In this document: one piece after another, positions 17,408 to 60,480 of the stretch | How positions within the stretch are numbered: position 1 is the stretch's first letter | Layout of the letters: every line of letters begins with the position of its first letter | Assembly: GCA_000827265.1 (NCBI GenBank) | Contig: KN834882.1 | Coordinates: 27,857 to 91,856, forward strand | DNA length: 64,000 nt | Origin: Collybiopsis luxurians FD-317 M1 | Lineage: Eukaryota; Basidiomycota; Agaricomycetes; Agaricales; Omphalotaceae | Direction: 5' to 3' | Made by a program: the position numbers and the translations under genes | Notes under the pieces: generated by a model | The model's database searches: none | Seen by the model: the letters and a program-made list of their open reading frames with translations, nothing else | Told to the model about the DNA's origin: nothing

Positions 17408-17412
17408 CCATC

Positions 17413-17755: not shown

Positions 17756-17761
17756 GTGCAC

Positions 17762-22406: not shown

Positions 22407-22411
22407 CCATC

Positions 22412-30755: not shown

Positions 30756-30860
30756 GGGGTATAGATCAAGTGACATGTCGTCCAAACAGGTGCTGCCCGT
30801 CAAAGAAAGCGATCCTGCAGAGACATTTTTGTAGGCCCGCCGGCGGGCTAATTCAATCAT
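30756..30860 (+). repeat. Left terminal inverted repeat
   Basis: The first 45 bases match the right end (read inward) at roughly two thirds of positions, including TCAAG, ATG and the 12-mer GTCCAAACAGGT. About 60 bases further in, GGCGGGCTAATTCA matches GGCGGGCCTATTCA of the other end. A perfect palindrome GCCCGCCGGCGGGC lies at 30835-30848. Confidence 0.85.
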
Positions 30861-32037
30861 AGACAATATTGTCCTGTGCAAATAATTGAATTGCAATAGA
30901 TTCATTTGTCACAGGCAACGGACAGGATTAAAGATTGGCTGTATTTCTACTCAATAAATTGGCCAGTAACCGACAGCATTCTTGTTCTACAGGAGGGAGG
31001 CATTTAGCTGCTGCTTATATGTTCTGTCATGTAAAAAACTGAAATCCGTCTTAGTACATTTGAACTTGCAGAATATATATGCAATAAGCTTGCTCTAAAT
31101 TACTGAAGATACATTCTGAAGGACAAAAATATGACAAAGAGTAACGTATGAGTGCGCAATAACATTGTTTTGGGCAGTCCTACTGAAACGCATATGCAGC
31201 GGAGTAGCCCGCTGGCCACTGCGTAAACCTCCCACAGATTATAATGCAATGAACTGGCATTGCGGCCATGATATGTATGTCCCGCAGGTTCTACAGGACA
31301 AGACGCATTGATTCAAGGGCTAGCTCATTATATCATCGTCCTGTAAAGGAGTTGAGCTACCCAGTGATGAACGATTCAATCCATGAATCGATGGAGGTTC
31401 GATACAGAACCTGAAAGAGAGGCTCACTGTATTCATGATCCCCAGGTCAAAGATGACCGAGGAGCTCACTCATTGCATGTATATTCTGTAATGAGCTAAA
31501 GTACAATGTGCCGCATTTTTGAACCACGGGAAATAGAAACAGGAGCCACGTCTCCACCTCTTTGCTATTGAAGTTCTGTGCCACAGGAAATAGATATTGT
31601 GGGCCAGTACTTCAGCCACTGAATTTATGTCATACCGGACCTAATACACTGAGCTAATGCTGCATTGACTACTGTAAAGATGTTCGATGATTACCCTTCT
31701 ACGTTGCTGTAAAAGATGACAGAAATAAATTCTTTGCGGGCTGAATCCGTTCTCTTAGGAGGAACTGCACTCGGTATGATGTTCCAGGATATAGATAATG
31801 GGAGCTCTTTTTGCGCACAGTGTATTTATGCCCTCCAGGATCAGAACACAGTCCCTCCATTGGCACTGAATACTACTATAAATGTACAGCAGATAGATAC
31901 GGTGATCTGGTTCTTCAGTCACTACATTAGGTATGACGAGTTACAGGACTTGGATACAGCAGGTCAGCATTTCAGTCACCATATCATGATGAGTCAGCTT
32001 TCGACCTATTGCATACCGTATACCTGTTCTATAGGTC

Positions 32038-32345
32038 TTAAATACAGTGAGCCAATGGCTGACTCACCGTATACTCGTCCTGTAAGCCCTGAATACAGTG
32101 AGCCAATGACTGACTCACCGTATACTTGTCCTGTAGGCCCTGAATACAGTGAGCCAATGGCTGACTCACCGTATACTCGTCCTGTAGGCCCTGAATACAG
32201 TGAGCCAATGGCTGACTCACCGTGTACTCGTCCTGTAGGCCTTGAATACAGTGAGCGAATGGCTGACTCACCGTATACTCGTCCTGTAGGCCCAGAATAC
32301 ATTGAGCTAATAACTGACTCACTGTATACTTGTCTATACTCATCG
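32038..32345. repeat. Homogeneous sub-block of the 51-bp repeat (type 1)
   Basis: About six consecutive 51-bp units, CCTGTAGGCCCTGAATACAG/TGAGCCAATGGCTGACTCAC/CGTATACTCGT, with few differences between copies. This points to recent local amplification. Confidence 0.9.
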
Positions 32346-33889
32346 TGTAGGCCCTGAATACAGTGAACCAATGACGCCGGCATACAATGAGTCCATTGCT
32401 GAGTCACCGCATACATGTTCGACAGGGCCTACATATAGTGAGCCAAATGCTGATTCACTGCGTAGATATCCTGCAGGACTTAATTACATTAGTTTCTACC
32501 TCACTGTATAAATATGCTACAACTCCTAAGTAGTAAAGACAGCGAGTCACTTAAGTGCTGATTCGCCGTATACTTTACGTGTCCCACTACAGGTCCTACT
32601 AAATACAATGAGCCATCTAAATGCGACCAGCCGTACACACTGTGACCTAGTTCAGGTCCTAAATACAGTGCGCCAATTGCTGACTCGCATGCATTGACCT
32701 AAATATCATGAGCCCATCTGACTTATTACATACCTGTCTATGGGACCTGAATGCAGTAAGCCAATTGCTGACTCACTGGATAGATATCCTACAGGATCCA
32801 AACACAGAGTTAATTCCTTACTCACTGCATAGATATGCCACAGTTTCAAGTTGAATACAGCAAGTCACTTAAGTACTGCCAGTGACTAGCCGAAGGCCCT
32901 AAATATAGTGAGCCAATTGCTGCTTCACCGCATGCATAGTATCCTATAGCACCTAAATATCGTGAGCCAATCACTGATTCATTGCATACATGTCCTACAG
33001 GACCTCAATGCAGGAAGCCAATTGCCGACGCGCTGCATTAATGTCCTACAGGACTTAATCACAATGAGCTAATTTGTGACTCATGACATAAATATGCTAC
33101 AGTTTCTAATTGAATACAGCGAGCTACTTAAGTACTGACCAGCCGTATACATGACCTACTACAGGTCCTAAATACAGTGAGCCAATTGCTGCCTTACCGC
33201 ATGCATATCCTACAGGACCTAAATATCATGAGCAGATCGTTGACTCATTGCATATATTTCCTACAGGACCTCAATGCAGTAAGCCATTTGCCAACTCACC
33301 GCATGCATATCCTACAGGACCTAAATATCGTGAACAGGTCGCTGACTCATTGCATACATTTCCTACAGGACCTCAATGCAGTAAGCCAATTACCAACCCA
33401 CTGTATTAATGTCCTACGGGACCTATGGCACAGTGAACTAATTTCTGTCACTATGCTACAGTTTCTAAATTCAGTGAGTCACTTTAGTACTGACCAGCCT
33501 TACAGATGACCTACTACAATTCCTATAGACAGTGAATCAATTACTTACTCTTCGTGTGCATGGTCTCACAGGACCTAAACATAGTGCCAATTGCCTACCC
33601 ATTCCATACATTTCCTGAAGGACCCATATACAGTAATCCAATTGCTGACCCACTGCATAAGTGTCTTACAGAAACTAAATACTGAGCTAATTTAACTCAC
33701 TGCACAAATAGTAGGAAGCTACTTGAGTATTAAATTTAGTGCTAACTCACTCTATACATGTCCTAGTAGGACCTACTTTACGGGTACCTAAATGGATTGA
33801 GCCAATTACAGACTCACTCAAGCTGCATATGCATCATGCTACAGGACCTAAATACAGTGACTCAAATACTTCGCCGCATGCCATCATCC

Positions 33890-34310
33890 TACCACAGGAC
33901 TTGAGTACAGTGAACCAGCTACTGACTCACTGTACACATGTTCTACAGGACTTGAATGCAGTAAACCAGCTACTGACCCACCGTACACATGTTCTACAGG
34001 ACCTGAATGCAGTGAGCCAGTTACTGGCCCACTGTACACATGTTCTACGGGACCTGAATGCAGTGAGCCAGTTACTGGCCCACTGTACACATGTTCTACG
34101 GGACCTGAATGCAGTGAGCCAGTTACTGGCCCACTGTACACATGTTCTACAGGACCTGGATGCAGTGAGCCAGTTACTGGCCCACTGTACACATGTTCTA
34201 CAGGACCTGAATGCAGTGAGCCAGTTACTGGCTCACTGCCTACACGTTCTTCAGGACCTAAATACAGTGAGCCAGTTACTACTGACTCACTGCATACATG
34301 TTCTACTACA
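33890..34310. repeat. Homogeneous sub-block of the 51-bp repeat (type 2)
   Basis: About eight units of the variant TACAGGACCTGAATGCAGTG/AGCCAGTTACTGGCCCACTG/TACACATGTTC. Four central copies are nearly identical. A related block follows at 34,380-34,720. Confidence 0.9.
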
Positions 34311-36229
34311 GGATCTAAAAACAGTGAGCTAATGACTGACTCACCATATGCATGCCCTACAGGGCCTAAACATGCTCTACAGGACTTGAATGCAGTGAAC
34401 CAGCTGCTGACCCACTGCACACATGTTCTACAGGACTTGAATACAGTGAGCCAGTTACTGACCCACTGCCTACATGTTCTACAGGACCTAAATGCAATAA
34501 GCCAGTTACTGACTTACTGCATACATGCTCTATTACAGGATCTAAAAACAGTGAGCTAATGACTGACTCACCATATGCATGCCCTACAGGGCCTAAACAT
34601 ATTCTACAAGACTTGAATGCAGTGAACCAGCTAATGACCCACTGCACACATGTTCTACAAGACTTGAATACAGTGAGCCAGTTACTGAACCCCTGCCCAC
34701 ATGTTCTACAGGACCTAAATGCACATGTGAAAGTGGGCCATCGCGCTGTGCGTGTGGCAGGTACGAGTCCTGAAGGATGGATATTGCATGGAATCCTAGT
34801 GCTGTAAAGTACCTGTGCATTCAAGTACAAAGGAAAGGTCCCAAAATAGAGACTGAAAGAGATGGGAAAAAAAATTTGATGAAATCAAAGAATCGAGAAA
34901 TAAGCGCTATTGACCATCTATGGACGATTCGGTTACTAAAACGGGACTGATATGCCATAAGCGCCTGTGAAAATTCGACCATAAGGACGAGTTTCCTCCA
35001 TTCCATTCCGGACTCGTAAATGAGCCAGTTACTGACTCACTGCATACATATTCTACTGCCTACAGGACCTAATGACTGATCCACCATATACATGCACTAC
35101 GGGGCCTAAATACGGTAAGTTAATTATAACTCACATATACTACTAGTAGTACATGTCATATTGCAGATAGAAGCAGTGATCTTCACGTACGTCCAGGATT
35201 CCCGGTCTTCACTACACCAGTAATGTACTACAGGGAATGGGCACAGAAGGTCATTTTCTTACTCACTTCAAAGTTTAGGTCCTACAAGACCTAAATCAAC
35301 TAGTTTTCAGTAGGTAGATGTCCTGCGGCAGTTATAAGCATGGTTGGCCATCTGTTCCTTCAGTCGCTGCATCATGTTTGTTCTACAGGACACAAATTTG
35401 ACAGAGATCTCATTCTGCCGTCACTCCATACAGCTAGTAGATACAGTGACCTAGTTTTCATCTTCATTTATGGCCCACATGATTGAAATTTAATGATCTA
35501 GGCCTCTAATCATTGTGTAGACTCTGGATACAGGGATTCACTTTGCACAACTGATGTCCTTTAAGATGTAATTCAGTCATTGTATTTATATACTACAGAT
35601 CATAGATACAAAGACCCATCTCACTACCCGCTGCTTTATCTCTAGAAAGCCTACACAGTGGGCTCACCGTATAGGTGTTTATCAACAGATATACTTATAT
35701 AGGGAGTGGGTCTGCACAAGTTATATCTCACAGGACACCATCTTTGGTTATTGCATTTATATACGATAGGGGGACATAAATGTTGTGAGCCAGCTCATCG
35801 GTCACGGCATTTATGTTCCGCACTGACTAAGCAGATAGACGCCGTGATGTGGTTTTTCTGCCGTTGGGTTCTACAGGCCATAGTTATGGTCAGTGGGTTC
35901 CTCAGTCACTGTAACTATATTCTACTGGACTTGGATACAGCGAACCAGCAAGCCAGTTCACGGTCACTGCATTTATGTTTCCCAGGACCAAGATACAGTG
36001 GCTAATTCATATCCTGCAGCAGATTTATACAGTAGATCATTTATTGCATCAAATTCACCGGTGACCAAGTACATTACTCCAAGATAGGATTTGGAAATGT
36101 TTCCCCATAACTGATTTCCTTCATACCCCCGGCAGTGCAATTCCTATTGAAGGGAACCAATGAAATGAGTGTTCACAAGAGAATTTTATTTCCCATCAAC
36201 AATTACAAATGAATATTCGAAGGAGTAGT

Positions 36230-38345
36230 CTATAGCTGATAAGGAATACATGCCGCGCGTCCGAATACTTGTAAGAAAGAGTTAGTATAAAAATTAGCCA
36301 GCGCATACTCCAAACGAGTGATAAAAGCTCCAAAATCCCCCCCCTCGTCCTTGTGCGGCAAATTTAGCAGAAGCAGCTCGGGTTTCTCACCTTTCCAAGA
36401 TTGCATAACACGATGCAATGCTCGAAGATAGACCCACCGGTCCTTGACAGTGGCAGCGCCCAGCCCTTTCGAGGACATTCGTATGTCGACATGGCTCGCT
36501 GTTTCCTCCCAACAACCATTCAACAAACTTCGCCGCTGAGCTGCATCCATGTTACTCTCGTCCAGGCGCTGATCGAGAGCAACCAAGTCGCTCCTGAAAC
36601 CATATTCCTGCAACTCCCATATAATTTCCTGACCAATCTGGACTGACAAATCATTGTCTATTGGCAAGGGGTGACCATTCCAGGAAACCGGTTGTAGAGA
36701 GATGTTCTCGGCACTTGACTGTCGCAGATTATATAGCCAGTTTAGAAGTAGGCGCATCTCGCTCTGGCATTGACCTGTTAGCGTCGGAGCATCCGCATCG
36801 CCGTGTCTCCAGCCGGCAATCTCCAATAGGCAGCGCCATTGCTTGCTGGTGAGACATAACGGCAAACCGTTAAGCTGAGTCAGGATTATTTTGCGGATTC
36901 GTAGCCAGCCGTGGAAGAGGAGCCTGACAGTCTGGGCTTTTGTCGGGGAGATGATATTTCGAACGGGGGGAACTCGATAACCAGATTTGACCCCTGGCGG
37001 AGGTCGCAGCGCTTGGTTATGCTCAGACAGGATACGCAAGGCGCTTGACCAGTTTGGGAGAAGGGTTGGCATGAAGATGCTATCGGGTACGAGGAAGGTA
37101 TTGCTTATAGGGGCAAGTTTTGGGCTACCTTTCGTGTCTGCAAAATGAGTTTTAAGTAGTTATGTCCTTGTGCAAAAACAGTAGTAAAAGCGCACATGGC
37201 GTAAATTTGAGATCACCCTTTCGTCTTAGAGACAACTCTGTACGTTTTGGTCGAGGTCCGCTTAGCATTGGTGTTTCCGACAACAGCGAATCCAAGTATT
37301 TCGCCATGTTCCGGTAATGATCAGGTTTGTTAGGAAGACCGTCATAGATGATTTTGTGGGGTGGCGTAGCATCGGTAGCGTCGACAACGAATCCATCAGG
37401 CTGAGTTAACCGTTGGGAGTAATCTTCTCGTATGAAGGATACGACAGAATCAATGCGCACAAACGGCATTGATTTTACCGTACATATATACCACACTGGG
37501 ATTCCAGCATAAAACAGGAGGTCCAAATCACCCAGGTCCTCCGTAAATGCTCCAATCACCTGAACGAGCGGCTGTCTTATGTGTTTAGCGGCATCCTTCA
37601 GTCGTTGCCGCCACTCAACCCTGACCCAGCGTGACCGAGCATCCAACTCCAGCAAGTAACATTGAATTTGAGCGACCAAAACAAACATCTTCACCATAGT
37701 CCAGGGGATATCTAGTCGATCCAAGAACCTGCGCAAATTCGTTCCCAGCGAAGAAAGGTACATGTTGTCCACATATGCTGGAACCCCTTTTAAGACTTGA
37801 TAACTGAGTGCTGAGAGAGCTTTGTGAAACTCAGGGTCCAGTTTTCCTAATCCAAGTGGGCTGTTCATGACAATAAATTGGTTTGGGAGCGGGGTAAGCC
37901 ATGCATAATAGAAGTCGTCCATCGGATTTCGAGAAGGACAGCGCATCAAAGCGAGATGGCCGGACTCAATTATAAAAGGTTGGGGAAAGTACAAGGGGTC
38001 GTCAAAACCAAAGTGGTAATCGCGCCGAAGGCGAACACGGCATAGGTGAGGGGGAGCAAACAGATAATCAACGTTCGGAGAAAAAGTCAGAAGGTCATTT
38101 TCATTGACATTTCCGACCTTGCCGTCAAAGGGTCTACGCTCAGCTACAGAGTGTCAGTAATAATTTAGGCACCCAGGGAACAGAGTCTGATTACCTTCGT
38201 TTCTGGGAACTGCGTAGCGAGTTAGAACAGTGGGGTCCTTCTGCACATTCTCAGAAGTCAGGGGAAACGCTCGTGCTTTCTCTGTTGCTAAATCCTAAAT
38301 ACAAGCCGTCAGACTGGAATGGAAGATGAGGGGATGGTATACCAT
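36230..38345 (-). CDS. Cargo gene 1: uncharacterised 652-aa protein
   Basis: Exons 38343-38345 (only the ATG), 38195-38294, 37196-38143 and 36230-37137 sum to 1959 nt with one open frame, 652 aa. All introns are GT-AG and 48-58 nt. The N-terminal half contains YHFGFDDPLYFPQPFII and WVRVEWRQRL. The C-terminal half contains WLRIRKIIL, PLCLTSKQWRCLLE, ALDQRLD and ends FGRAACIPYQL. I recall similar uncharacterised proteins in mushroom genomes but know no function. No signal peptide, membrane segment or catalytic motif is apparent. It is the first gene inside the left repeat array and points toward it. Intactness argues that the element is young or its cargo is maintained. Confidence 0.8.
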
Positions 38346-38663
38346 AATTAGAAGGCTTATGCCCTGATTAAAATGAGCCTATCGAATGAGTACGGGTTAA
38401 ATTGCATAAGAGACACTTCTTCCCCATGTCCCGCACTGAAAACGAGTTCGCAGAGGTACGGAGAATTGAAAAAGAGAAGTAAGTCCCAGTTGCGTGCTTG
38501 AAATATGCTTTTTACAAAGAAGTTTGAGGAAGAGAAATATAGAAAAGAACAGAGGGTTTAAGCGCCCACTGGCGCCAGCTCGCATGACGTTCCGTCAAAA
38601 TTTGGGATGTTATTCGGCTAATGTAAAATATACTACCGACATAGATGAAAGACACAATACGCA

Positions 38664-41600
38664 TTATTTCGAAGACATCCCCACCAGTCTTCGAACTCCT
38701 TTTGCTTTGCGTGACTCAACCGTTTCCTGCACCCGATGAAGCCAAACCTCCACGTCTTTATTTGCTTTAGCCTGGTTTTCCTCCTCCTTCTGAACAGTTG
38801 CCAGACGAGATTCCAGTCGATTGATCATATTTCGCAGTCGGACGCTTTCCAGACGGTCTACCACATAATGACCCTCCTCATCCTTCTCCTTGGTCCAAAC
38901 ATCGTCCAAGCACCAGGTCGTCACTTCCTGCACTTGACCTAATACTAGCTCACGTAGACGAGGATGCAAATATTGCGTGTTCCAGCCCTCACTGCTCCAC
39001 CCAGGCTCACCTTTCCTTGTCCTCGACTCAATCTTCCCAGTCTTAAACAGAAAAAATTCAAATAGAGCTTTCTCCCAATGACAACCGCAGTGCAGAGCTC
39101 CTTCCTCCAATGTTTCTCCCGCTTTTTTTGGTCGGTAGGGCACCCCAGTAATATTCCATGGTCTGGGTGTGCCTGACCAATCGTTCTGTTTTGCATTGCG
39201 AGTATTTGCGTGTTGAAGGCACCGTATATGACCATGAGTCGTCGTTAAGATCTCCATAGACAATTCAGGACAAGTACTGGTGCACTCCGGTATGAAGAAG
39301 TTGACTGTACGCAAGAGATATTTGATGTCTCTGGAAAACTTTTCTCCACTCGTCAAGAAAGCCGTTATCTCTTCTCGAGCTTGTCCTATCATTCAAAAAC
39401 ATTTGGCCGGGGCAACACATCAAATTCTAGCTCACTCACGAACTGTATCTTTGTCCCCTGCTATTCTCCTACATCTTTCATCTTATATACATGGTGAGCA
39501 GTAATCATGATGGAACTAGGAAAGTGAACTCACATTCATGTTCGTCGTCTTTCTTTTTTTTGTTAACTCGCCTCTTTTTACCCAAAAAATCTCTACCGCT
39601 TTCATCGTCATCATCATCGGCTATATTTGGGAAGTCTTGCTGATGGAATTCCCCAAGGTCAAGTAATTCACCTTTGATCACTAATGCATGATTTAAAAAA
39701 ATAGGTCCTTTGATATATGAATAAATGACAAACCTCGCTTCTGTTTGACTGCCACAGTTACGCCAGGATGAACTACTGGTATTTGCCTCGAATTGGAATT
39801 TTCAGCCTCAGCCTTTAACGTCTCACTGTCGTCTTTGTCTGGAGCACACTCAAGCTCTTCCCCATTAAAATTAATCAATTTGAGTCCCAGTTGTGCCGCC
39901 GTTTTCATCATTTCCCGAAGTTTGTCTGATGCTACTCCTTCCCCAGAAAGTACACTAGACAGGGATTGCAGTGCTGTGGGCAGCAACAAAGAACCATGGC
40001 CCTCCTGTTGAGGAGATGAAGCTGGCTCTAGATCAATGGATGGTGGATTTAGAGCTATAGAGGCATTCCGAGCAGGATAGCCAGGAAGGGAAGGATCTAG
40101 AGTTGAATATTCCGGGGAAGATCCATCGGCCACTTTGGCATTGGAAACAGCAGAAACCGTTGAGGGATCGAAAATGGCTGGAATAGATGGAGGCAAGGAT
40201 TGGGGTGTTGTGGGCAGTAACAAAGAACCACTGCCCTCTTGTTGAGTGGATGAAACTGAATCTAAAGTCATGGGTGGTGGATTGAGAAGTACCGGGGAAG
40301 TCCAAACAGGATTGCCAGAAAGGGAGGGATGTAGAGTTGGATATTTGGACGAAAGTCCATCAGGCACAACAGAAACTTCTGAACCTTCGCCCTCTTGTTG
40401 AGGAGATGAAGCTGAGTCTAAAGCCATGGACAGTGGATTAAGAAGCACAGGGGAATTCTCAACAGGATTGCTGGAAAGGGAGGGACCTAGAGTTGGATAT
40501 TCGGGGGAAGGTCCATCGGTCACAGCAGAAACTGCTGATAGATTGGAATCGGCTGGAATAGATATGGAATTCTCAGTAGATGAATTAATTTGAAAGCTAT
40601 CTTCGTGGGGAGCTGCCGGGTTGGAAGGATGGAGAGATACCGGGTTAGCAGTTTCCAGGGCTGAAGTCAGAGTACTATCCCCCGAGGCTGGACTCTCTAA
40701 ATATGGGAAGCCAGGGATCGGGGTGGGGTAGAGCACATCTGTAGATTCCACAGGCAGACTCGATGTATGGGACTTCATACCCGCTCGATGAACAGTGAGC
40801 TTTGGTTGACTGAGAACCTCAGCTCCAGAGGAATGAGGAGCCACAACGGTTCCATCAACAGTCGAAGTTAAGGCTGGAAAGGATTTAGACTGAACTGGAT
40901 CGATCCCGGATTTCAAGTTATCATCTGAAGTGGAGTTCGTTGAGCAATGGTCGCGCCAATATCGATGATATCGCCAACCTAACATTAGACTCCGGGCCTC
41001 AGCAGAGAGTCCAGTTCCAGAGTAGCCAGTTGGGCCTTCGACAGAAATTGCAGTAGAAGGAGAGGCTGGATGAATTAAGTTGAAGATGAATCGGTTTTAT
41101 GAGAAAGTTTCCGACTCACGAGTAAGATGCCTTCCCATAGCATTGTCAAGTATCTCTCCAACACGCTCCCCAATTTCAGTCAGCGAGCGACTAGTTGGCC
41201 TAGCTGGATGAGACTCTACACTACCAGATGCAATGACGGTTTTATTGAACTCGGAGTTCCCTATAGCTAGTACTGGTGTCATTCGAAGATCAACGTCAGT
41301 GGGACTCCCGGCGAAGACATTTTCACGCATAGCCGAACTGACAGAGAGTGGCTGCTTTTGTTCTGTTCCTCGTTATCACTCAAGACTGCCAGCATACCAG
41401 AAGAAATAGCGTACCCTTTTTTCCTTTCAATGGTGTTGCGAGATCAGTGTCGCTAAACATTTTGTCTCCGCTGCCTGCAAACTCTCATGATGAGGGAACG
41501 GCTAAAGACTGACAGACACTACGTACCATCAATATCCGTCAATTCTGAAGAGCCTCTTACTGCACTCAAAGGCTCAGTACTTCTTGTGGCCTCAGGGTTA

Positions 41601-41952: not shown

Positions 41953-43068
41953 AGAGAAAAAAAGTTCTGCAGAAAAAAATAGCTTCAAAACCAATCTGCC
42001 ATGAGAGGTTTTGAGTGTGGCCTTTTGTATGATGGGCCTGCTGCTCTTTTTGGTAATTGCTACAATGGAAGATCTTGGGTAAACTACCGATCATTCATAC
42101 AGTGCAGCATTCTCGCTGTATTTCCTAAATCGATCTCAAATGCCAAATGGTCAGAACTCGTTACCTGAACCTTTCTTCGCATGCGTTTATTCAAATGGAA
42201 CGATCAGATTATAATCTCAGACCTGACATTTCAGAGCAAGGGGAAGTCACTTAAACGCTGTAAAGCATGTCTGTATTTGCCTATGGCATACGGAGGTCCA
42301 AATGTCAACTCCACCATTGTTTTTTTAACTACCCTGCCACATTCTCACTCCCAATACCGCGGTGGAATCTCGTATCTGGACGATATACAATGGAAAATAT
42401 GTAGTCATTTAGTTTTCTACGTCTACAATCCACAGGAAATTATGCGCTGTCAGTTTTAAGTTACATATTAGGGAATTCTGGGCCTCATAATCGACAAATG
42501 GTTTGGTAAGAAGTTGCCCAGACCTCCTAACCCAATGTATTTGGGTGGCAGTTGTCGGATGCCCTTGCATACAGGCGTTCCCGGCAACTCGTATCGATTT
42601 CTCTCTGCAATTTCTTCGATCTCCATTTGGATTCACGCAGCGAGGTGCTCTTTTTTCCACTGCTTTTGGCATAGGGGTTAGGTGGGTGTTATGGACGATG
42701 GGAAGGGATGGAGGTGGATGAGGACACCACATATTTTTCTGGGTTTTCCTTTGCTTTTATGGTGTTTGGGATTGCAATCATCAATCCATCTCGATTTGAA
42801 ATCGATTTTCTATCTCTCTCAATACAATGGCATAAATTTTTCACTACAGAATGATAGGTAAATATATCAAATTTCCCATTCTCTCAAATTTACCACATAG
42901 TTCGTGTCTCCCGCAAACATAAGGGATAGAGATTGAAGATTGAAGATAATTGCGATAGCACCGTTTTATTCCTTTGGTGGCATGCAATAACCAGGTCCAC
43001 CAACCAATCATCATCGCAGCTGTGCGGGGGCACGTCAGTATAATCCTAGCCCAACTTGATCCATTGAC
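41953..43068. other. Intergenic inside the giant element
   Basis: No gene is supported. Short frames at 42,181-42,459 and 42,409-42,732 have no recognisable features. This stretch holds the cargo gene 2 promoter and the 3' flank of cargo gene 3. Confidence 0.45.
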
Positions 43069-44003
43069 TTACTCGAATGCTATGTGCTCGTAACTTTTGA
43101 CAATAATATTTATGAAACGAGGCATGCAGTACTCATCGGCTAGGAAATTACAGTCACTAAGACGGTATATTATCTGGAACCTCGCTGCGCCATAGACCAC
43201 TGACCACCCGTGAAGAGGGAGGAATGAAGTGATATTGCCATTTTCTATCGCTATGGGCAGGCTTAGACGCCACTTCCACATAGATCCGTCGCCCAATTGA
43301 TGGGGGCCAAGTAAGAATTCTTTTCCGGGAGCACCTGAGAAATGAGAAACATTGACTCCGAAAGAACCTTGACACCCCCCAGTAATGAAGCTAAAAGTTT
43401 TATGGGTGATTATGGGAGTGGGCTCCTGACTGTCGAATGTCGAAGATGGAAAGACAGACCAGGCATCAGTGGCTGAAATGAGGTTGTGTAAGATTGCTGG
43501 GCAGAGAAATTCAGTGGGAATGCTTAAATCGGTTTAGGAAAGGACTTACTTGACTCCTGCGCAAAAATAGCATGCAGAATACCATGGGTGGCACCAAAGA
43601 CATGTATTATGACTTCTTCATTTGTAAAACAATACAAAATTGCTTCCTCTTTGCTTCCACAGGCCCATGTTTCATTCGACTCGAAGGTTTCTTGGAAACG
43701 CTGTTGGTGATCAGGGAAGAGCTCTAGTCGAGCAGAACAGTACTGGAAACCCATAGGGCGCAAGATTTTTGCAAGGGCGGGAACAAGACGATGGGCGACA
43801 AAAACATCCAAGGGACACATTGATGGTGCCAGGAGGGCAGCCCTGCGAAGAAAAAGGTATGACCACACTCCTGAAAGCACAGCACCGAGACGTTGCTGAT
43901 GATTGCGGAATCGACGAGCTCGGGCAGTAGTACCCAGATATGCCACCAAGCTTGCCTCGATATCCAGCTTTTGTGCCATAAACATATCGACCAACGTTCT
44001 CAT
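43069..44003 (-). CDS. Cargo gene 3: uncharacterised 285-aa protein
   Basis: Exons 43550-44003 and 43069-43472 sum to 858 nt, 285 aa, with a GT-AG intron of 77 nt. The start is the first in-frame ATG (MRTLVDMFMAQK); in-frame stops lie just upstream. The N-terminal part is helical with Arg-rich stretches (TTARARRFRNHQQRLG). The C-terminal part looks beta-rich (HGWSVVYGAARFQIIYRLSD). No known motif is recognised. It is divergent from cargo gene 4 across 360 bp, suggesting a shared promoter region. Confidence 0.7.
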
Positions 44004-44363
44004 TCCCCGACACACTCAACGAAGCCTCATCAACTCGCCATTGCCGAGCAAGTTGAATAGCTTCGCCAACGTGTTCTTTGTGTTCTCGTTAGGGATGAAT
44101 AAGGTTGAGGGAGGGAATTCGGAAGTGGAAACCAGTAGCCTGGTCGAGTCTTCCAGCAACATGGTGGGTTTTCTGTCCCGAAGAAAGTCAGTAAACTATA
44201 AGTATATGTCGAAAATACTTGGGCAGGAAATTATCCAAATCTGTGTCCATTTCGGGAAGTTGGATCTAGATAATGGTTAATTAAATGAATATTCATCGAC
44301 AGAGCTGCCCTGAACAGCCTCACAAGTATCTTTGATACAACCCACTCGTCTTTCACTCAGCCC

Positions 44364-45602: not shown

Positions 45603-45746
45603 GGTCACCAACTGCAGTCGCCGCTGGGTCGCCAACCGCAGTCGCCACTGGGTCGCCAACCACAGTCGCCACTGGGTCGCCAACTGCAGTCACCACTGGG
45701 TCGCCAACCGCAGTCGCCACTCGGTTGCCAACTATAGTCCTTAGCC
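45603..45746. repeat. 24-bp minisatellite, about six copies
   Basis: Unit GGTCGCCAACCGCAGTCGCC+ACTG. On the minus strand it would encode VATAVGDP repeats, but no gene context supports translation. It lies just 3' of cargo gene 4. Confidence 0.85.
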
Positions 45747-45749
45747 CAA

Positions 45750-48222: not shown

Positions 48223-49644
48223 TTATTGCGATAGCTCTGAGTTATACTGAACCGAATGGAGGAGCCTCTTATGTTGTTCTTCCAACTGCTGGTTTTTTGT
48301 ACGAAGATCAGCAGTCTCAGCTAGGGCTGCAGACAGAGCTGCTTCCTTAGCAATCAAATCAGCGGAGAGCTCAGCAGCATTGCTCCGGCGGGAACATTGG
48401 AGTGAGACAAATAATTTATTTGTTTCATTGTGGAGAGAGTCAAGAGTGGGTATCCAGTCCAGAGTCAGCCGACGGGATGTGTAGTGAGTGAAACTCTCAT
48501 GTGCATTAGGATGCTGCGCGGCGAGGTACATCCAACAGCCGGTCTCCTCTCCGAGTTGTTCACACTGGGTTTAATTAGGCCAAGGATGTGAACATTAAGA
48601 ATAAATACTTACACAACAAATGATCTTTTCGAGCTCGCATCGGTAGCGTCGAGTTGATTCAGAAACCTCAGTCCGAGGTGCAGGAACTGGTCTGTCTCTC
48701 ACAATGTCTGTAGGAGGTCAAATTAGTAAAGAAACTCGCACAAAAAAAAGCCATACTCCATTGTTGAGACCCTTTTGCTGCCCCTTTAACCCGACCAAAT
48801 AGTGGATCCTTCTGAGTTGCTCGATTTCGATGAGGTTTGGTGGGGGAAGACAGTGGGAAAGACATGGAGGAAGCTGGAGATGTCTGAGTCACTGGGGATG
48901 ACAAGCCAGGGGGCAAAGGTGTCCCCCTTGGGGGGCTCGAAGGCAGAAGTGATGACTCTCCGGTATGCACAAGCAGTGAATTGTCATTCAATCCCGTGGA
49001 CTCGGCCTGATTGGTTTGTTCACCATTTATGACCGGGAAATTGGGCTCCATAGTGAAAGGGTGCAGAGAGAGGGAATGACCTCTACGAGGGGGGCGAGCT
49101 GGAGTCTGGAAAAGATCATGTGGAGTGAGAGAAGTTAACGACGGGTTCCCGTCGCCAGTTTGTACAGCAGGAGTACTGTTGTCTTCATTGGGGACAGAAG
49201 GATCAACATTTGTGGAACGGACGTTGCCAGCCTCTAAATTGTGAGCAAGGTCTTCAAGCTGGGAAAATGGCGCTCCCGGTGCAACCTGAATGCCTGCATT
49301 TACCAAGGAGCGGTACTAGTACTGCAGAGTAAGATATCAGGAAGTACAACAGCTATCAAAGAAAGAAAAACATGAACTTTGTCTCCATAACTTTTACTGT
49401 GAATACAATCTGAAGAAGTCAGGACCGGGGACCCAATGCATTTTCTGCAACGACGCGGTTTTTGCGATTCTTTAAGTGATTTACTTGAGGCAATTCTACG
49501 CGGAGGAGACTGCTGGGGCTGGGAAATACGTTTCAGAGGTGATTTACGGGAGCCAGATTTGTTGGAGGATGTAGCGGTGGAGCGTTTCTTTGGAGTTTTG
49601 CCTCCAGAAGTCTTTCTGGAAGACTTGCGGGGGGAACGTGCCAT
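48223..49644 (-). CDS. Cargo gene 5: basic, Cys-cluster, coiled-coil protein, 420 aa
   Basis: Exons 49378-49644, 48757-49315, 48613-48707 and 48223-48564 sum to 1263 nt, 420 aa, all with GT-AG introns. The N-terminus is a Lys/Arg/Ser/Pro-rich tail (residues 1-65), followed by a small Cys cluster (RRCRKCIG...C). A disordered Ser/Pro region follows, then a conserved-looking stretch around QQWNIVRDRPVPAPR and CEQLGEETGCWMYLAAQHP. The C-terminus is a coiled coil (LIAKEAALSAALAETADLRT). It is transcribed divergently from the KDZ transposase with starts only 252 bp apart, so the two are probably co-regulated. It may be an accessory transposition or DNA-binding protein (inference). Confidence 0.75.
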
Positions 49645-49896
49645 ACTAAAGTCAGAGAGGCGGAGCGCCAGGGGATCCCTTTTATACTGCTACGCTGCTT
49701 ACTCAGCGGCACTGAGATAGTTCATACGGAGATTTGTAGAATCCTGATTTTTACCCATGAACTCATTCGTAGACGATACAGAGGGTCTCCCCTCCTTACC
49801 GTCATTACGATGCACAGACTTCGAGCCCGAAGAGATATACCACCCGGGACGAGAAATGTCCAAAGCTGAAGGGCAAGGCATTGTCAGCCCTCAGAA
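49645..49896. promoter_or_regulatory. Divergent promoter between cargo gene 5 and the KDZ transposase
   Basis: A 252-bp interval separates the two divergent ATGs. A TATA-like TTTTATAC occurs at 49,680-49,687. No other motif is assigned. Confidence 0.45.
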
Positions 49897-52810
49897 ATGA
49901 CCTCAAATTCAGCTTTATCACTCAAGCGTAAGTCGAGGGGGAAATCCAACCAGAAAAAAGCATCGGCCAGGCTTCAGGTCTTCTTCCGGCATTCAAACAA
50001 CGGACCAAGCTTCTTTGGAGACAAATGAACTACCATTCCTGGATACTGAAAATGCTGTAGCAATCCATCCAGAGAGCATGGCCAGTGACAGTACAGATGA
50101 TTTTGCAAAATATGCCGATGCAGTACAATGTGAATGTGTAGGCTTTATACGACTGCATCGTGGATTGTTCGTAGTAGAAGGGTGGGGGAAGGAGCAGGGG
50201 CAGGGAAATGTGAGTGTTCGGCACCCGTGGGACTGAATGCACAATTTTAACAGTTGGCAGAGGCACTGGTATCACTTTGAAGCATTAGGGCAGTTCAAGC
50301 AATGCCGGGTATCTTGTCTATGTCCCGCCGGGGCTTGGAATTGCTTCCATAAGCATTATTACACCCTATATGAGAGTGAGATAGAAGATGACATTCATAA
50401 TGAAGAAGGTTTGTATACCATTTCATTCAAATGTTAAAACTCATCTGCTGAATCTGGACCTGAAGGAACATATGCAAATGTAATCCTTTTTCTAAAAGAA
50501 AATATAGGATTTGAAGGTAATCAGGCCTCCAATGACCTTGTTGGAATATCTCAATGGGTTATTGTCAAGCATGAGGGCTCAGATGCTGGTGATGGTAGGT
50601 GGTACTGTTCAAGTCAGAACAAGGATGGCCCAATGTGTGGCCATATTGGAGCTGCTCAAAGATTCATGAAAGGTGAAAGTGATGCTGAGGGTTTGAGAAA
50701 GGTTCCTGAAGGCATAGATATATGTAAGCATTCCAACTCTATACTAGTTATCTTCTAGTACTAGTTACTCACTGCAAATCCACAAGCCTCAACCAAACAG
50801 TTTTCCTTCCAATCTTTACGAGCAGTGTCCTACCTGCCAATTTTGCCTCCAAAATGGTGCATGCTCCCTGGTGAGGTGGAATTCTATCCACGCCCTCGCC
50901 CACTACAACAGCCTCCTGCCCTTATTCAACTATCTGAAAAAGCAAGTTGTCCATGTTTAGATGGAGAACGGGCCTTCTTTGATCCTCTTCAACCAACAAT
51001 CACTTGTGAGTGTAAGGTTTACACTCTGACAGAAGCATTTTCTGTTCAAATTCAGCTTCAACAATGCCCTCGATGCCCCCAGGAAAGGCACCGCTACATA
51101 GGGCCAGAGCCAAGAGACATTGGGCTCTTCAACTTAAACAATTCTGCAATTTTCACCCATGAATTACTTAATGAATATACAAGTGCCTTTAGCAGCTCAG
51201 AAACACCTTTTGAACCCTGGGTTCAAACAATTGCTCGGCGGTATGAAGAGATGCAACCAAGTATTCCCTTTGTGGGTGGGGGACTCTTTCGATCAGTCTG
51301 GTTTGCATATATTCGACTGATCCAGTTTGAGGGAGACAAGACATGTCCAAGTTGTGGCACTTTTCCCAACAATGTTATCTGGGATGGGGTTTCAATTGCT
51401 TTTGGATGCAAACATGTAAATGATGAGCTGCAGCCCCCTACTGTAGTCCAAGCCAGTGCAATGGAACATCCAAGCAGGTCTTTATCTCAACAAGAATGGC
51501 TACAAGATGGAAAGATGAGGAAAAAACTTCGGGATTGGCTTGCTGAAGGAGGACTTAAAATTGAAAATGGAGCAGATGGTGGTGATAATCACATTGAGAC
51601 CAGCCTCAAGCAAGTCAAAATCCTGCAGCTAGAGTTGTATCCATGGTTACACACTCTGAGCCCTCATCTCAAAGATATGTTCAGTAAACATCTTGGTCAT
51701 GGGGCTGTCCAAAATGGAAAGGGTTGGAGTCCAAGGAAGGAGTACCTGGTTTTATTCCAGATTGTAAGTCAACTTGAAGATATGAACCACAGATTCAATT
51801 TAAAGATCTAATATACTGTATTTGTAGCTTTCAGCTGAAGAATCTACTATGCAAACAATGTCACATTCAACCCTTTGTAACCTAGAAACTTTCATCCAAA
51901 CCCCAACCCATGACAATATCCAAGGATTGCTTAGCACCCCAGCTTTAAATACCATCCTGGAGCTTGAATGGGCAAGAGAAGGTCACTATGCAACTGAAAC
52001 TTTGGGTGTTGCAGCATGGATGTACCATCATGGAAAGAAAGTTATGGATGCACTACTGGCTATGAATCCTGTGCCTCTGGACTCAAGACCCATGGAAAAG
52101 GCCACAATGATAATAGAAAAGAGTTCAGAAATACACCCCTGGGAGAAGGTAAGTGGTTGAAGAGGATGTAATTATTCAGGCTTATAAGCAAAAAAAAAAA
52201 GACAGGGTGCTGTTATGGCTTACCACAAATTCGAAATTGTCCCCGGTATCCCAAGCTACCTTATGATAGCAAGGCTGATGTGAGCAGAGAAAGGACTGGC
52301 TCATGTCAGAAATACTATGAGACTTATTCTCAGAAATGTTTAACTGGTGGAATCATGGCTTGTTGGTGCACTCATAGCATCTGCTATGGTTTTCATTGCA
52401 TTCCTGTTGGTGAAGGACGCAATGATGTATTTTCAGCTATAATCACCAGATGGCCCAAAGCTCCTTCCAGAGTAGTATATGATTTTGCATGTGCTCTTGG
52501 ACCTTATTGTTGGACCCGGGAACCTGAGTTCTTTGGTGACACTCAATTTCTAGTGGATGGCTTTCATGCACCTGGCCATTCAAAATGTTCCCCTGCAGCA
52601 TTTCTGAAGAGCTATTCTGCAGTGGATGCTAATTTGACTCACATTAACTCTAGTGCAGCTGAATGTGGAAATAGTGGAATGACAAGGATATGGAAGTCAG
52701 TAAGTTACATGGGACAAACTCATGCAATCCTGTATTGCTGGGCTTTCATTTCTGTGTGGAATCGTTTGCAGATTCGAGGGCTATATAAAAAGGCTGGAGA
52801 GTTACTTTGA
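49897..52810 (+). CDS. KDZ-family transposase, intact, 833 aa
   Basis: Exons 49897-49977, 50021-50209, 50261-50408, 50508-50723, 50826-51763, 51828-52148 and 52202-52810 sum to 2502 nt in one open frame. A basic N-terminus (SLKRKSRGKSNQKK) is followed by two SWIM-like Cys/His clusters (SCLCPAGAWNCFHKH in exon 3; WYCSSQNKDGPMCGHIG in exon 4). Cys-rich CxC modules occur in exon 5 (CPCLDGERAFF, CPRCPQERH, CPSCGTFPN), between which lies LNNSAIFTHELLNEYTSAFS. The last exon carries the hallmark KDZ core: LTGGIMACWC, VYDFACALGPYC, VDGFHAPGHSKCS and SSAAECGNSG, presumably holding the catalytic acidic residues. KDZ transposases are DNA cut-and-paste enzymes expanded in mushrooms. It is the natural candidate for mobilising the surrounding element. 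Base composition becomes CpG-poor from exon 4 onward. Confidence 0.9.
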
Positions 52811-54967: not shown

Positions 54968-56984
54968 TGGAGAACCTTTGACAATTCATTGGTGTGGCGC
55001 ACAGGCCGAGATGTCGGTCACGTGGATGGACACTAGAGTATTTCAATGTCAGCTTTTGTCTTTCTTCCACAGACCACCACGATCTTTTTGCCCTACCCAT
55101 TTGCTACCCATCATGATCTTTTAGCCCTTCCTTCGTGTTCAGTACACGTTCGTCAATTCGATTGACTGTCGCTGTTAGGCAGCCGTGATAACCCTTACGA
55201 AGCACCGTAACTCAGGTTCTTTGTTTTAAATAAAATAGTTCAGCAATTCTATTTTTTGTTTTGTTATATCCCTGTATTGAGAGTGTACAGGACATTTGAG
55301 AGTATGCAGGACATCCAAATTTCTGCTAAATTTAACAATAATCTTGAAAAACTCACCACAAAGCTGAAGAGGACATGGCAGTGTGCTGAAAAGGACACGG
55401 CAATTTGCTGCGGAGCTACGCAAGCTATGTTAGACCGGCGGGAACTACCATGGAAAGCATCGAAGCCCCTACCTTCGCGACGCCTATACATATTTTGTTT
55501 CCTGATTTCGAGAAGAGTGCACGGTAAATGGTACTCTGGATCTGGTAATTGCCGCAGTTCCAACTTCCCTCTCCCTCTCTCTGTCCCGCACTACCCGACT
55601 TACCTTCGACCGTACAAACTAGAGCCTTTACAGCAACGTAGGGCAGTCATTTCCTGTATCCGGGCTTCCTTCCAAGTTGGTCCTACGTATTGATGTTCCA
55701 TTGTTTTGACTCACGTACTATTTTGCGCGCGTTGAAACAGCTCTGAGAAATGGCCCCGACAAGTTTGAGCCAACAACTATGTTAAAGACCCTCACTTCAG
55801 CTGGTGAATTGAATGCCAGCTCCGACGACACTGACACTGGGAATGATAACACTTGGACTAACAGCGCTCGTTCAAGTGAAGGCACACGAATTGACGATGC
55901 CAGAGCTACCCCTTGCGTACGGAAATGTACCTGAAATATGAAGGAACGATGGGGCAAATATAGAGTTGAACAAAGGTTCGGGCGCCTATCCCACGCTTTG
56001 ACCAGGTTGCGTTTTTGTGTGGTCGTGTGTTTTGACACACGTCTTGGACGAGCGCCATCACGTAGAGAACAGTGTAGAGGATGAAGAACTAGACAAGGCT
56101 GCTCAAAAGCGTGAGGTTGGGGGAGAAATGATCACGAACACAACATATTTTGGCTGATTCTCAGTTTTTCCTTCAAAATTTCCACAATTTCGTGGTGGAA
56201 ATCAGCGCATGAAGGTAAAGATTTTGATTGTTTCAAATATTCGATGCGTCTGGGTGTGTTTTTTTTCAGGGATAAGACTAAATTTTCGAGCCACTGGAAA
56301 GGAAAACAATGGGACTTGATTATGAGTAAGCGATGAATTGATATTCAGTAATCTTGTTCGCGCGTACCATGCCAAATCCTTTCTCTGCTTGCTGACCACA
56401 TCTTTCTCTTCTCTCACTACGGTGGTTCGACAATCCGTTCCGACTTTTTCGATTTAAGTTCTGGCCTGAAAAGACGGGGGGTTGAATTGGAATAGCGCTA
56501 CAGTTTTTTTGGTATGTGGCTGAATTTTTTTTTCGTTTTATGCTCACTGAATTGTGTTTTGGAAGTCCTAAATTTTGGCATTCATTTTCTGTGGGCTCGG
56601 CTGCGCTCAGACAACATGTGCGACATTATTTCAAGCTCAACGACGTTCTTCAAGTTTCAACACGTCCAGGTAGGCCGAATATGCTTCAGCATGCGCATCC
56701 AAATTTCCAGAACCCCCTCCTGGCCTTTAGTGTCTTATATTTTTCGACTCACACTGCTCTACGTCCTTGAGTAGGCCATCCTCAGCAACTGCGTCGACTT
56801 ACAGTTAGTCCCTTTGCTTAACCCCCCCGCGACCGCTGACCTCAACAATTTTTTTACCCCTGCAGAAATTTTGTGGCGGTTCATTTGCGTCGATAGCTGC
56901 ATCGTCCGTGAACTCAAGATGATTCTTCCCTGCCTCCCTCAATGAATTTCTGTTCAATCCGTCATTTGCAATCTTGTATCCCCC
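54968..56984. other. Intergenic; no supported gene
   Basis: Frames at 55,256-55,693 (plus) and 55,718-56,038 (minus) are open but unrecognised. Short direct repeats of the type AGGACATTTGAGAGTATGC occur near 55,290-55,400. Any 5' exons of the GIY-YIG-like gene would lie at 56.5-57.0 kb. Confidence 0.35.
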
Positions 56985-57904
56985 TTGTTTCGCTCTCTGG
57001 CGTCCTCCTCGTTTCGCTCTCTGGCATCCTCCTCGTTTCACTCTCTCGGTACCTCATTTCATTCAACTCAAGCTATCCTATGCGCCAAGGGATTACCCAA
57101 CGACCTACTTTCAATCCCGCCTCAAGATATTTTGACCCTGAGGGAACCTATCGACTGGATCGTAAACCGCCTGCTTGAGGCAGAAGTCATCCGTCAAATC
57201 ACAGGTGGCTTCCAGTTTCTTCTACCAAACTGCGAAACAGTTGTCGCGTACCGAAAGGGTATGGCCCTAGGGTCCGCTTCATCTTTCGATGCTGGCGTCG
57301 AGCATTTCACATTCCCGGAATGAGCGGACTCTTTTGAACCTGGCACGCACGTGAACCTTCGTACTGCATGGTCCTGGACGATGGACAAAGACCTTTCCGA
57401 CTCCCACAACACTCTGGTATGCTTCTCAGCTCTCCCTACTCGGGCCACTATCCGCCGAAGACCCCACCAGGCGTTAGAGAAGAAACTTGCCACATTTCGG
57501 CCTCACAGGACTGGAAATGTTTCCTGGATCTACTGGTTCTTCGAGCCGCCTTGGACAATGAAAATTGGCAGAACTAACAATCTTTTGAGGCGTGTGAAGG
57601 AATGGAATAAGAAATGTCCAAATCCACTCCGAATGTGGTGCGGTGCTTTCGTATCGTCGTGTGGACCCAGTGTTGGTGTGTAATTACTCGTCTATTCGTG
57701 CTTTTCTCAAACTTCATTCCAGAGACACTCTGCCATTGGCGAATGGAACAATCAACTTATGATAGGCCTGTCACAGAATGTCGGTCTTGTGGTGTATCCC
57801 ACAAGGAGGTTTTCATAACTAATGGCAGTCTTGACGAGTCCGATAGCTTGGTGTTGTCGATTGTTTGGGAAATGGAGGAGATTTATTGCAGCATTCATCT
57901 TTGA
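56985..57904 (+). CDS. GIY-YIG (T5orf172-type) nuclease-like protein, start unresolved
   Basis: The core IYWFFEPPWTMKIGRT, followed by NNLLRRVKEWNKKCPNP, matches the GIY-YIG/T5orf172 pattern (I-Y, K-I-G-R-T and an Arg helix). A GT-AG intron (57670-57722, 53 nt) joins it to an exon containing QSTYDRPVTECRSCGVSHKEVF, which carries a Cys/His cluster that typically follows this core in mushroom homologues (recall). Stop at 57902-57904. An in-frame TGA at 57321-57323 interrupts the upstream frame, either an unrecognised intron or CGA decay. The N-terminus is therefore uncertain. The presumed activity is DNA nicking or cleavage; a role in transposition or genome defence is only inference. Confidence 0.6.
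56986..57057. repeat. 24-bp tandem repeat, three copies
   Basis: Unit CGTTTCGCTCTCTGGCGTCC+TCCT, three copies with increasing divergence, upstream of the GIY-YIG core. Confidence 0.7.
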
Positions 57905-58549: not shown

Positions 58550-59170
58550 CTCGAGTGGTCTCGTAGAAGGCAGCAATTACTTTCACATTGAGCAGGTATT
58601 TGAGTATGCAATCAATTGCAAAACAAATTCTGATTCTTTGGAGCATTTATTTGCATTGAAAAAATCTTTGAGGAAACCGCACCATTCATTCCCACTGAAT
58701 AGTCTTGTGGTAGGGAGCAAAAAATTACCACAGCATTTATTTGCAGTAAAAGAAGTTTGGAGAAAACAGCAGTAAGTTGCTGTAGTATGGATTTGTAGTG
58801 AGTGATCCCTTAGAGGGCTGCATTTAATTTCGATGGCAAGAATTTTCTATGGGGAATTTGTTAAGAAGTGGCACTCAAATTTAGTTGCTTTTATTTGCGA
58901 TGAGGTTTGGGAACCACTTGCTGACTATTAATGTTGTGAAAAGCAGCAATTAAGTTTAGTAGTGATGATTTGCAGTGCATGATCTAGTGTTTTAGGCAGC
59001 AAATAACCCCTGTAACATTGTCTCAGGCAACGAATATAGTATTACTAGTCTATTGTAAAGCAGTAATAAACTTCAATGTATGACTTCTGCAAAAAACAGC
59101 ACTCAGCTTCTGTGGCATGTATTCTCAATGAGTGGTAAACTCCTAGGAAGTATTTATTTACTGTAGCAAT
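58550..59170 (-). repeat. Right subterminal 51-bp array, inverted block
   Basis: Units read in reverse orientation, with words such as GTAGAAGGCAGCAATTAC and CAGCATTTATTTGCAGTAAA. These are the complements of the units in the next block. Confidence 0.8.
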
Positions 59171-59289
59171 GGTGTGCAGTAACTGATTCTTTGTAGTACA
59201 GAAATTGAATCATGATGCTAGTACAACCTACACTTAACCTAAGCAGAACGAAGTTTTTCCTGCTACTGAAACTATTCTCAGCCTCACAA

Positions 59290-60260
59290 AGGACAAGGAC
59301 CTTCCACTGTAAATAGATGCTCCGGCAATTAATACTACCTTATATAACATTTTTATAGCAGACATTTGCCACAGGAAGCGATCATTCCATAATTATTATC
59401 TACCTTTATTGTCTATATATTTTGTGTGCCGAATTTAATAATTCTATACTACTAGGAAATGTACTACTAGGGAATGAATGACAAGGAAACAATGTATTAA
59501 AAATTTCTGGTACTGAAATTGAAAGCTGCCATCTGTGAGACTATTCACGGAAAATAAATGCCACAGTAATCTATTGCTGTCTGTCCTAAAAACCATTGAC
59601 TGTAAATAAATGCTGCAGTAATTTGTTACTGTCTTTTCTAAAACCATTTACTGCGAATCAATTCCATGGCAATTAATTGGTGCTTCCCAAAATCATCCAC
59701 TGCAAGTAGATTCTATAGCAATTATTTGCTGCCTTCTACAAGATCATTCACTGCAAATAAATTCTGTGGCACTCAATTGCTGCCTCCCACTCAAGTTTCT
59801 TCACTGCAAAATACATATTACAGAAATTTGTTGCGCCTCTACAAAATTATTCAATGCAAAAACATCCCATAGTAAATAATTGCTGCTATCCAGAAGTCTC
59901 CTCACTGCAAATAAATGCTACAACAATATGTTGCTGCCTTTTATGAGACTGCAGTGCAACAATTCAATGGCTTTCTAACAAATCATTTGCTGCAAATAGA
60001 TGCTACCGAGAATGAGTTCTTAATCATGCACTGAAATAGTACTGGCTACCGAAATTTATTCCTACCTTGTACAGAGTAAGACCACTCGCTGCGAAACCTT
60101 CAAGTGCCATTGAAATTTATTGCAGTCTTATTTAAGTCTGTTTACTGTAAATCAATGCAATCAAAACCAATTGCTACATTCTCCAGTATGCTTCGTAATG
60201 CAGGACCACAATCATTTACAGCAAATAGATACTACAGCAATCAGCTATTGCCTAATAAAT
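59290..60260 (+). repeat. Right subterminal 51-bp array, direct block
   Basis: Degenerate units of 51 bp, roughly TCATTCACTGCAAATAAATG/CTACAGCAATTAATTGCTGC/CTTCTACAAGA. CACTGCAA recurs at 51-base spacing between 59,698 and about 59,900. The segment TCACTGCAAATAAATGCTACAG resembles TCACTGCATACATGTCCTACAG of the left array. Confidence 0.85.
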
Positions 60261-60374
60261 TTGTCATAGGAATTAATTGCTGTATACATGATACAACGAT
60301 CGCATACATTGGTCGTCTATACGTGTTGTATACTATATCATTCAATTTAATAGATCTGTACTATGAAATAAATG

Positions 60375-60480
60375 GAAAAATGAATAGGCCCGCCCGCGGG
60401 ACTTGGAAATCGCACAGGCAGGCTTGGTATATGGTACCCGCGGTACCTGTTTGGACGGCATACCGCTTGACACATATCTG
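60375..60480 (-). repeat. Right terminal inverted repeat
   Basis: Complementary to the left end: ACCTGTTTGGAC at 60,445-60,456 mirrors GTCCAAACAGGT. CCCGCCCGCGGG at 60,389-60,400 corresponds to the GC palindrome of the left end. It ends at 60,480, immediately before CATTGAAG. Confidence 0.85.

Follow-up and report, generated by a model that had tools for sequence, protein, structure and literature searches.

Eukaryotic cut-and-paste transposons are mostly small, and giant elements of fungi are discussed mainly as Starships. Large exceptions include the En/Spm elements of a red alga with 16-20 kb (PMC6431247) and the 180-kb Teratorn, reportedly a fusion of piggyBac and herpesvirus. Starships are giant multi-gene transposons of fungi and were reported also in the basidiomycete Tremella fuciformis (PMC13066641). 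KDZ transposons, extra genes within them and 8-bp target-site duplications (TSDs) are already known (PMC12730594). In this superfamily, Zisupton shows 8-bp TSDs together with terminal inverted repeats (TIRs) (Kojima 2025, PMC12730594), and the Kyakuja elements of Agaricomycotina that carry TET/JBP genes are described as two families with 7-bp TSDs and CA..TG ends and, in that description, no TIRs (PMC12730594). The element KDZ1 of Cryptococcus neoformans has a size of approximately 11 kb, a KDZ transposase, 241-bp TIRs and 8-bp TSDs, and new insertions of it were observed (PMC12810828). Moreover, KolobokP combines a DDD/E transposase and a homing-type nuclease in one element (PMC9587614). Here, we analyze a stretch of 64,000 nucleotides from the mushroom Collybiopsis luxurians FD-317 M1 (assembly GCA_000827265.1, contig KN834882.1, positions 27,857 to 91,856; called the window, in which position 1 is the first letter). 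It contains a 29.7-kb insertion, which is very likely a giant integrated KDZ-kind DNA transposon whose gene core is conserved.

The insertion, its ends and its sibling elements

The spacer upstream of a TIM50-like gene is present twice in the window, uninterrupted in copy A and, in copy B, split behind the CATTGAAG that ends at 30755 and resumed at 60481 with CATTGAAG. In a self-comparison of the window, 8506-9334 matches 29923-30756 at 90.1% and 9326-11527 matches 60481-62693 at 92.0%, and the copy A parts of the two matches have CATTGAAG (9326-9333) in common, together with a single G that follows it by chance. On the + strand of the window this octamer occurs at exactly three sites, 9326, 30748 and 60481:

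30756..60480, no strand: transposon of 29,725 bp (empty-site comparison, TSD and inverted ends)
30748..30755, + strand: left copy of the 8-bp target-site duplication CATTGAAG (self-comparison, octamer count)
60481..60488, + strand: right copy of the 8-bp target-site duplication CATTGAAG (self-comparison, octamer count)
9326..9333, + strand: empty site in the paralogous copy A with a single CATTGAAG (self-comparison; the second empty site is contig C51)

If the flanks of copy B are joined, the junction aligns without a gap both to the copy A run and to a third copy on contig C51, which represents a second, independent empty site on another contig of the same genome; the C51 alignment contains an 11-base gap, but this lies roughly 55-60 bases beyond the junction. 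The original prediction, made from the sequence alone, had placed the 29.7-kb insertion exactly to the base, and empty site, 8-bp duplication and inverted termini do agree, with C51 as a further empty site.

The ends themselves are imperfect repeats and are organized as follows:

30756..30791, + strand: left terminal inverted repeat, GGGG-TAT...GTCCAAACAGGT (inverted-end comparison)
60445..60480, - strand: right terminal inverted repeat, CAGA-TAT...GTCCAAACAGGT (inverted-end comparison)
30835..30848, no strand: GC-rich palindrome GCCCGCCGGCGGGC, positions 80-93 from the left end (palindrome scan, for which pair counts give modest support)
60389..60400, no strand: GC-rich hairpin-like palindrome, positions 81-92 from the right end (palindrome scan, pair counts)
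31980..34788, no strand: subterminal array of 51-bp repeats (repeat analysis)
59552..59653, no strand: tandem repeat of two 52-bp copies in the right subterminal region (comparison with siblings)

In a gap-free comparison the inverted termini are identical at 26/36 and 64/100 positions, and the 12-mer GTCCAAACAGGT at positions 25-36 is the same in both. When the left 36-mer was placed at all 127,928 positions of the window, 26 or more matches were reached, besides at the 36-mer itself, at one place, the right terminus. The earlier claim of inverted repeats running gap-free from the boundary thus holds for the 26/36 identity, the shared GTCCAAACAGGT and the palindrome at about 80-93 bases inside, but not for the outermost four bases, which differ between the ends (GGGG and CAGA) and hence form no inverted repeat. 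This asymmetry recurs in 10/10 sibling pairs described below, of which one end begins with CAGA and the other with GG. Among 38 distinct ends, at least 5/8 pairs at the best centre were found for the palindrome in 29/38 versus 7/38 for a control stretch, which gives moderate support to the palindrome. A 51-bp-period array exists also in the sibling on contig C11, near its gene-A-side end. Two units of the 29.7-kb element match the C11 unit at 28/51 positions at best rotation, one of them in reverse orientation, a score that 0.15% and 0% of 2000 shuffled sequences attained, and a common origin of both arrays appears likely.

The first and last 200 bases of the element yield 15 and 37 matches in its own genome, respectively, itself included in both counts, and the 38 ends compared show sharp boundaries with differing flanks. 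A terminal pattern written from these ends gave, with one mismatch allowed, 94 matches versus 30 for the reversed control. From these, 12 inward-facing pairs were chosen by eye, including the 29.7-kb element and a 0.7-kb pair on C20 that was kept outside the TSD test. In all ten further pairs a TSD is present at the predicted boundaries (eight perfect with 8/8, two with 7/8). Within its own genome the element thus has relatives that resemble it in their termini and in the 8-bp duplications, and the original prediction withstood there its second refuting condition, the lack of another element with such termini. Four of the ten pairs are giants, on C11 (27,242 bp), C81 (30,286 bp), C79 (32,201 bp) and C146 (37,852 bp). 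The remaining six measure 2.6-5.3 kb and contain no match of the genome-wide KDZ family search, and they are therefore probably non-autonomous. One end recurs at two sites whose flanks differ, with identity over 317/317 bases, which suggests that a sibling family moved recently. The C20 pair (C20:382884-383609) has both end types and flanks that by eye are similar, not identical, and it is probably a miniature derivative.

Contigs C8, C14, C52, C57, C72, C90, C137 and C199 stop a few hundred bases inside the terminal repeat, which suggests near-identical copies that broke the assembly. That at least eight contigs end just inside such termini, and that the TIM50-like gene lies twice on the contig, again on C51 and partly on C25, could also be taken to indicate that two haplotypes or copies of the TIM50 region were misjoined around repeat DNA. 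However, an exact TSD and TIRs stand at the join, four other giants have TSDs of their own and the C51 empty site is independent, and we consider an assembly artefact extremely improbable. The TIM50-like gene and pieces resembling a short-chain dehydrogenase form a duplicated cluster (window 3561-14674, 29348-30755 and 60481-63889), and further TIM50-like copies are found on C51 (89%) and, partial, on C25 (94%). By profile match the product of this gene contains a NIF phosphatase domain, the name TIM50 being that of the original prediction, and the match of the dehydrogenase-like pieces to the short-chain dehydrogenase/reductase (SDR) profile is below cut-off.

The transposase and the conserved gene core

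The element encodes a protein related to KDZ transposases:

49781..52810, + strand: KDZ-type transposase gene of several exons, with CxC4 exon 50765-51811 and core exon 52172-52810 (Pfam, sibling alignment)
52481..52483, + strand: candidate second catalytic Asp in the motif YDFAC (alignment with 12 other KDZ loci)
52661..52663, + strand: candidate catalytic Glu in AAECGNSG, which in the alignment adjoins, in different columns, the GE..ER-like motif that other KDZ loci have

The CxC4 domain (PF18717) is matched in 50765-51811 with 149.5 bits at a cut-off of 26.9, and with KDZ just below its own cut-off the proposal of a transposase class unlike that of Starships is supported. In an alignment with 12 better-scoring KDZ loci of the same genome, the YD of YDFAC corresponds to YD in 9/12 and to YN in 3/12, and FH..H is kept in 11/12. 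When the DNA was aligned with that of C146 and C11, the exons proved to be conserved and, judged by eye, the splice donors kept, the second being weaker in the 29.7-kb element. A PDB profile search, applied to the transposase core and to genes A and B, gave for the core a best E of 0.35.

Besides the transposase, five genes were delimited mainly by their conservation in siblings:

36230..39392, - strand: gene A, core exons 38664-39392, 37152-38153 and 36230-37159 (sibling conservation; a less conserved N-terminal part may reach to about 41900)
42415..44183, - strand: gene B, main conserved exons 43536-44015 and 43072-43506 (sibling conservation)
44680..45495, + strand: gene C (sibling conservation)
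48223..49689, - strand: gene D, with segment 48223-48570 being 82-87% identical in C11 and C146, the two siblings compared
56973..57904, + strand: gene F, with a partial MUG113/T5orf172 (GIY-YIG-type) match at about 57555-57638 (Pfam, sibling comparison)

The elements on C11 and C146 are colinear with the 29.7-kb element from gene A through gene F, with protein identities of 39-89% over 34 exon comparisons. In 34/34 of these, the proportion of nonsynonymous differences (pN) is smaller than that of synonymous differences (pS). The ratio of the corresponding rates (dN/dS) is 0.03-0.30 in 23 exon comparisons with computable dS, a rough measure as dS is near or beyond saturation and was not computable in 11/34. 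The exons were taken from similarity matches, in which adjacent pieces overlap slightly and exon F3 lies partly in a wrong frame. C146 owes its extra length to the regions separating the core from the ends, which are longer and rich in tandem repeats, and to a larger spacer ahead of F; the distance from gene A to the transposase is about the same as in the 29.7-kb element, and the core contains no extra genes. In 10-kb pieces of C81, C79, C23 and C2, genes A and B are present in all and gene C in all but C2, where the piece ends at the start of gene C. Genome-wide, 31 loci with transposase exons were found, several of them fragments, and as the searches were done exon-wise all counts are lower bounds. 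Genes A, B and C stand in canonical order and strands at 18/31 of these loci, and at 12/31 also gene F. Gene A lies within 20 kb at 24/31 transposase loci, 19 times upstream on the opposite strand and five times downstream on the same strand, and the identities of gene A and transposase to the 29.7-kb copy correlate (Spearman 0.93, 23 loci).

The composition of the element could be explained differently if the ends of a small KDZ transposon, or of a neighbour, bracketed independent mobile genes, the 29.7 kb being a passive unit. The six elements of 2.6-5.3 kb and the one of 0.7 kb carry this kind of ends without a KDZ match inside, so that ends can apparently be mobilised in trans, and for 11 of the 35 loci with homologues of gene A no transposase exon lies within 20 kb. 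On the other hand, five giants, the 29.7-kb element and four others, have their own 8-bp TSDs at different sites, the core gene order is common to C11, C146 and the 29.7-kb element, and A, B and C keep it at the 18/31 loci, so that such a composite is highly unlikely.

Profile searches assigned little function to these genes. In gene F, MUG113 reaches 28.3 bits (cut-off 22.3), although the match is confined to positions 2-26 of the 73 in the profile; the siblings score 25.1 (C146, above the cut-off) and 21.7 (C11, just below). For T5orf172, gene F scores 24.0 (cut-off 20) and its sibling versions 19.7 and 19.4. No Pfam match at E 0.01 or better was obtained for genes A, B and C, and none above cut-off for genes A, B, C and D; members of the exon alignments of genes A and C had a best Pfam E of 0.26. 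In the PDB profile search, the gene A exon had a best E of 0.32, and for the gene B exons the results were none and 0.37. AlphaFold2 models of single exons without alignment had a predicted local distance difference test (pLDDT) score of 32.8 for gene A and 47.5 for gene B, too poor for a fold search. From its motifs gene B might encode a degenerate nucleotidyltransferase-like protein, which we do not claim here. Matches to Peptidase_C1 (0.16), DOCK_N (0.015) and Herpes_IE68 (0.085) in other frames were below cut-off and were taken as chance.

The size of the element, its multi-gene content and the presence of genes without assigned function would suit a cargo transposon of the Starship type, in which a small mobile part carries host genes that vary between copies, and the original prediction had called the element cargo-rich in this sense. 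This characterization was not borne out, as the non-transposase genes form a colinear and constrained set common to many siblings. Because order and strands are shared in the siblings and the proteins are under constraint, these genes are, judged by the sequence comparisons, a colinear core rather than random cargo. Furthermore, the element has a CxC4/KDZ transposase, TIRs and an 8-bp TSD, and 20 open frames scanned, a part of those in the element, gave no match to a tyrosine recombinase family. We consider a Starship-like cargo transposon very improbable. The Starship, composite and assembly-artefact readings were rejected on the TSDs, the transposase class and the shared gene order, while a large DNA transposon with TIRs and TSD, as originally proposed, is supported by the ends, the 8-bp TSDs and the sibling elements.

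Weighing of the interpretation and proposed mechanism

A number of observations weigh against a giant KDZ-kind transposon with a conserved core. The KDZ domain (PF18758) in 52172-52810 reaches 25.7 bits (E 1.1e-5), just under the cut-off of 26.6, and the transposase of the 29.7-kb element is absent from the 96 matches obtained when the whole genome was searched for KDZ. The candidate Glu lies outside the GE..ER-like columns, and the alignment with the 12 KDZ loci settles no first catalytic Asp. At five positions of the transposase core with Arg in both siblings, this copy has Cys, Gln, Cys, Trp and His, and its observed/expected CpG ratio is 0.63 versus 0.90-0.93 in the TIM50 stretches. In 6/34 exon comparisons the sibling stretch contains one or two stops. 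None of genes A, B, C and F is in its canonical place at 8/31 transposase loci, five of which have gene A downstream on the same strand. The G-type end is found on the transposase side in 2/5 giants (C79 and C146), core and ends being inverted relative to C134, C11 and C81. Finally, no movement was observed.

Regarding the KDZ domain scores, sibling C11 reaches 24.9 bits and C114 26.2 (26.6 with its neighbours). In view of the CpG depletion and the five changed Arg positions the 29.7-kb copy may be decaying, though at 0.57 the observed/expected CpG ratio is as low in the window's first 15 kb. The diverged group of five loci on C32, C55, C56, C71 and C81 (134.9 kb), in which gene A follows the transposase on the same strand at a distance of 10.4-10.9 kb, is by its gene arrangement a second architecture of the family.

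We retain with high confidence the giant KDZ-kind transposon, for which the insertion, the ends, the 8-bp duplication, the relatedness of the transposase, the many siblings of the same gene order and the protein constraint on the compared core genes are direct observations. It is probably transposed by cut-and-paste. In this mechanism, the internal KDZ transposase, an RNase-H-like DDE enzyme with a CxC4 zinc module, would recognize and pair both ends via the shared core GTCCAAACAGG, the terminal palindrome and perhaps the subterminal repeats. The 29.7-kb DNA would then be inserted at an 8-bp staggered cut, which would account for the TSD. The core, consisting of genes A to D and the GIY-YIG-like gene F, would travel as one set and probably acts on behalf of the element. 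Its products might bind the ends, help to assemble a large transposition complex, counteract silencing or, via a second nuclease, raise the copy number. A stronger proposal, namely that the KDZ transposase works only with the fixed element-encoded partners A to D and the second, GIY-YIG-type nuclease as a self-contained machine, is tentative and in our view rather doubtful.

Other mobile DNA in the window includes a Ty1/copia-type retrotransposon at 17412-22407, with 333-bp direct terminal repeats that are 96.4% identical and an RVT_2 match inside. At 15168-16292, a perfect 430-bp direct repeat adjoins an open frame that by eye is mariner-like.

Comparison with known systems

Among the matches listed in a literature search limited to open-licence PMC articles, there was no report of a giant KDZ element with such a conserved core. 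As far as this search shows, the size together with a conserved multi-gene core and a GIY-YIG-type gene appears to be new. Two reports on Marasmius oreades weigh against novelty, as its transposon library contains elements of up to about 42 kb, the class of which is not stated in the relevant passage (PMC9674265), and TIR motifs of its KDZ elements were characterised (PMC8290104). KDZ elements of 27-38 kb that have a multi-gene core conserved among them would constitute a second class of giant transposon in fungi. Its defined gene set would allow roles in moving very large DNA to be tested gene by gene, and the exact end sequences can now be used for searching other fungal genomes.

The element resembles Zisupton in its 8-bp TSD and TIRs, found in the 29.7-kb element and in 10/10 pairs (two with 7/8), a likeness drawn from the ends and not from a transposase tree. 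It differs in the size of 27-38 kb, the further conserved genes and the unequal outermost four bases. Cryptococcus KDZ1 carries CxC1 where the 29.7-kb element has CxC4, and the relevant passages mention no such gene core (PMC12810828). With Kyakuja it shares the combination of a KDZ transposase and a further gene in mushrooms, whereas the 8-bp TSD, the TIRs and the GGGG/CAGA ends set it apart from that group. No Pfam match to Tet_JBP was found in the 20 open frames of the element scanned, which the divergent PE type, as far as it is described, could escape (PMC12730594), and PF12851 yielded genome-wide one match below cut-off on C26.

Polinton/Maverick elements have a 6-bp TSD, a protein-primed DNA polymerase and an integrase; the 29.7-kb element has an 8-bp TSD, and its 20 scanned frames gave no polymerase or integrase match. 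In KolobokP, which belongs to the Kolobok transposons of animals, the termini are long direct repeats and the nuclease is of the His-Me finger type (PMC9587614), in contrast to the KDZ transposase and GIY-YIG-type domain found here. While Starships combine a tyrosine recombinase captain with accessory cargo, the Collybiopsis elements combine a KDZ-type transposase with a shared gene core. If the partner-dependent machine were true, it would allow DNA of 27-38 kb to move and persist as a large family, and its conceptual counterpart would be multi-protein bacterial transposons such as Tn7.

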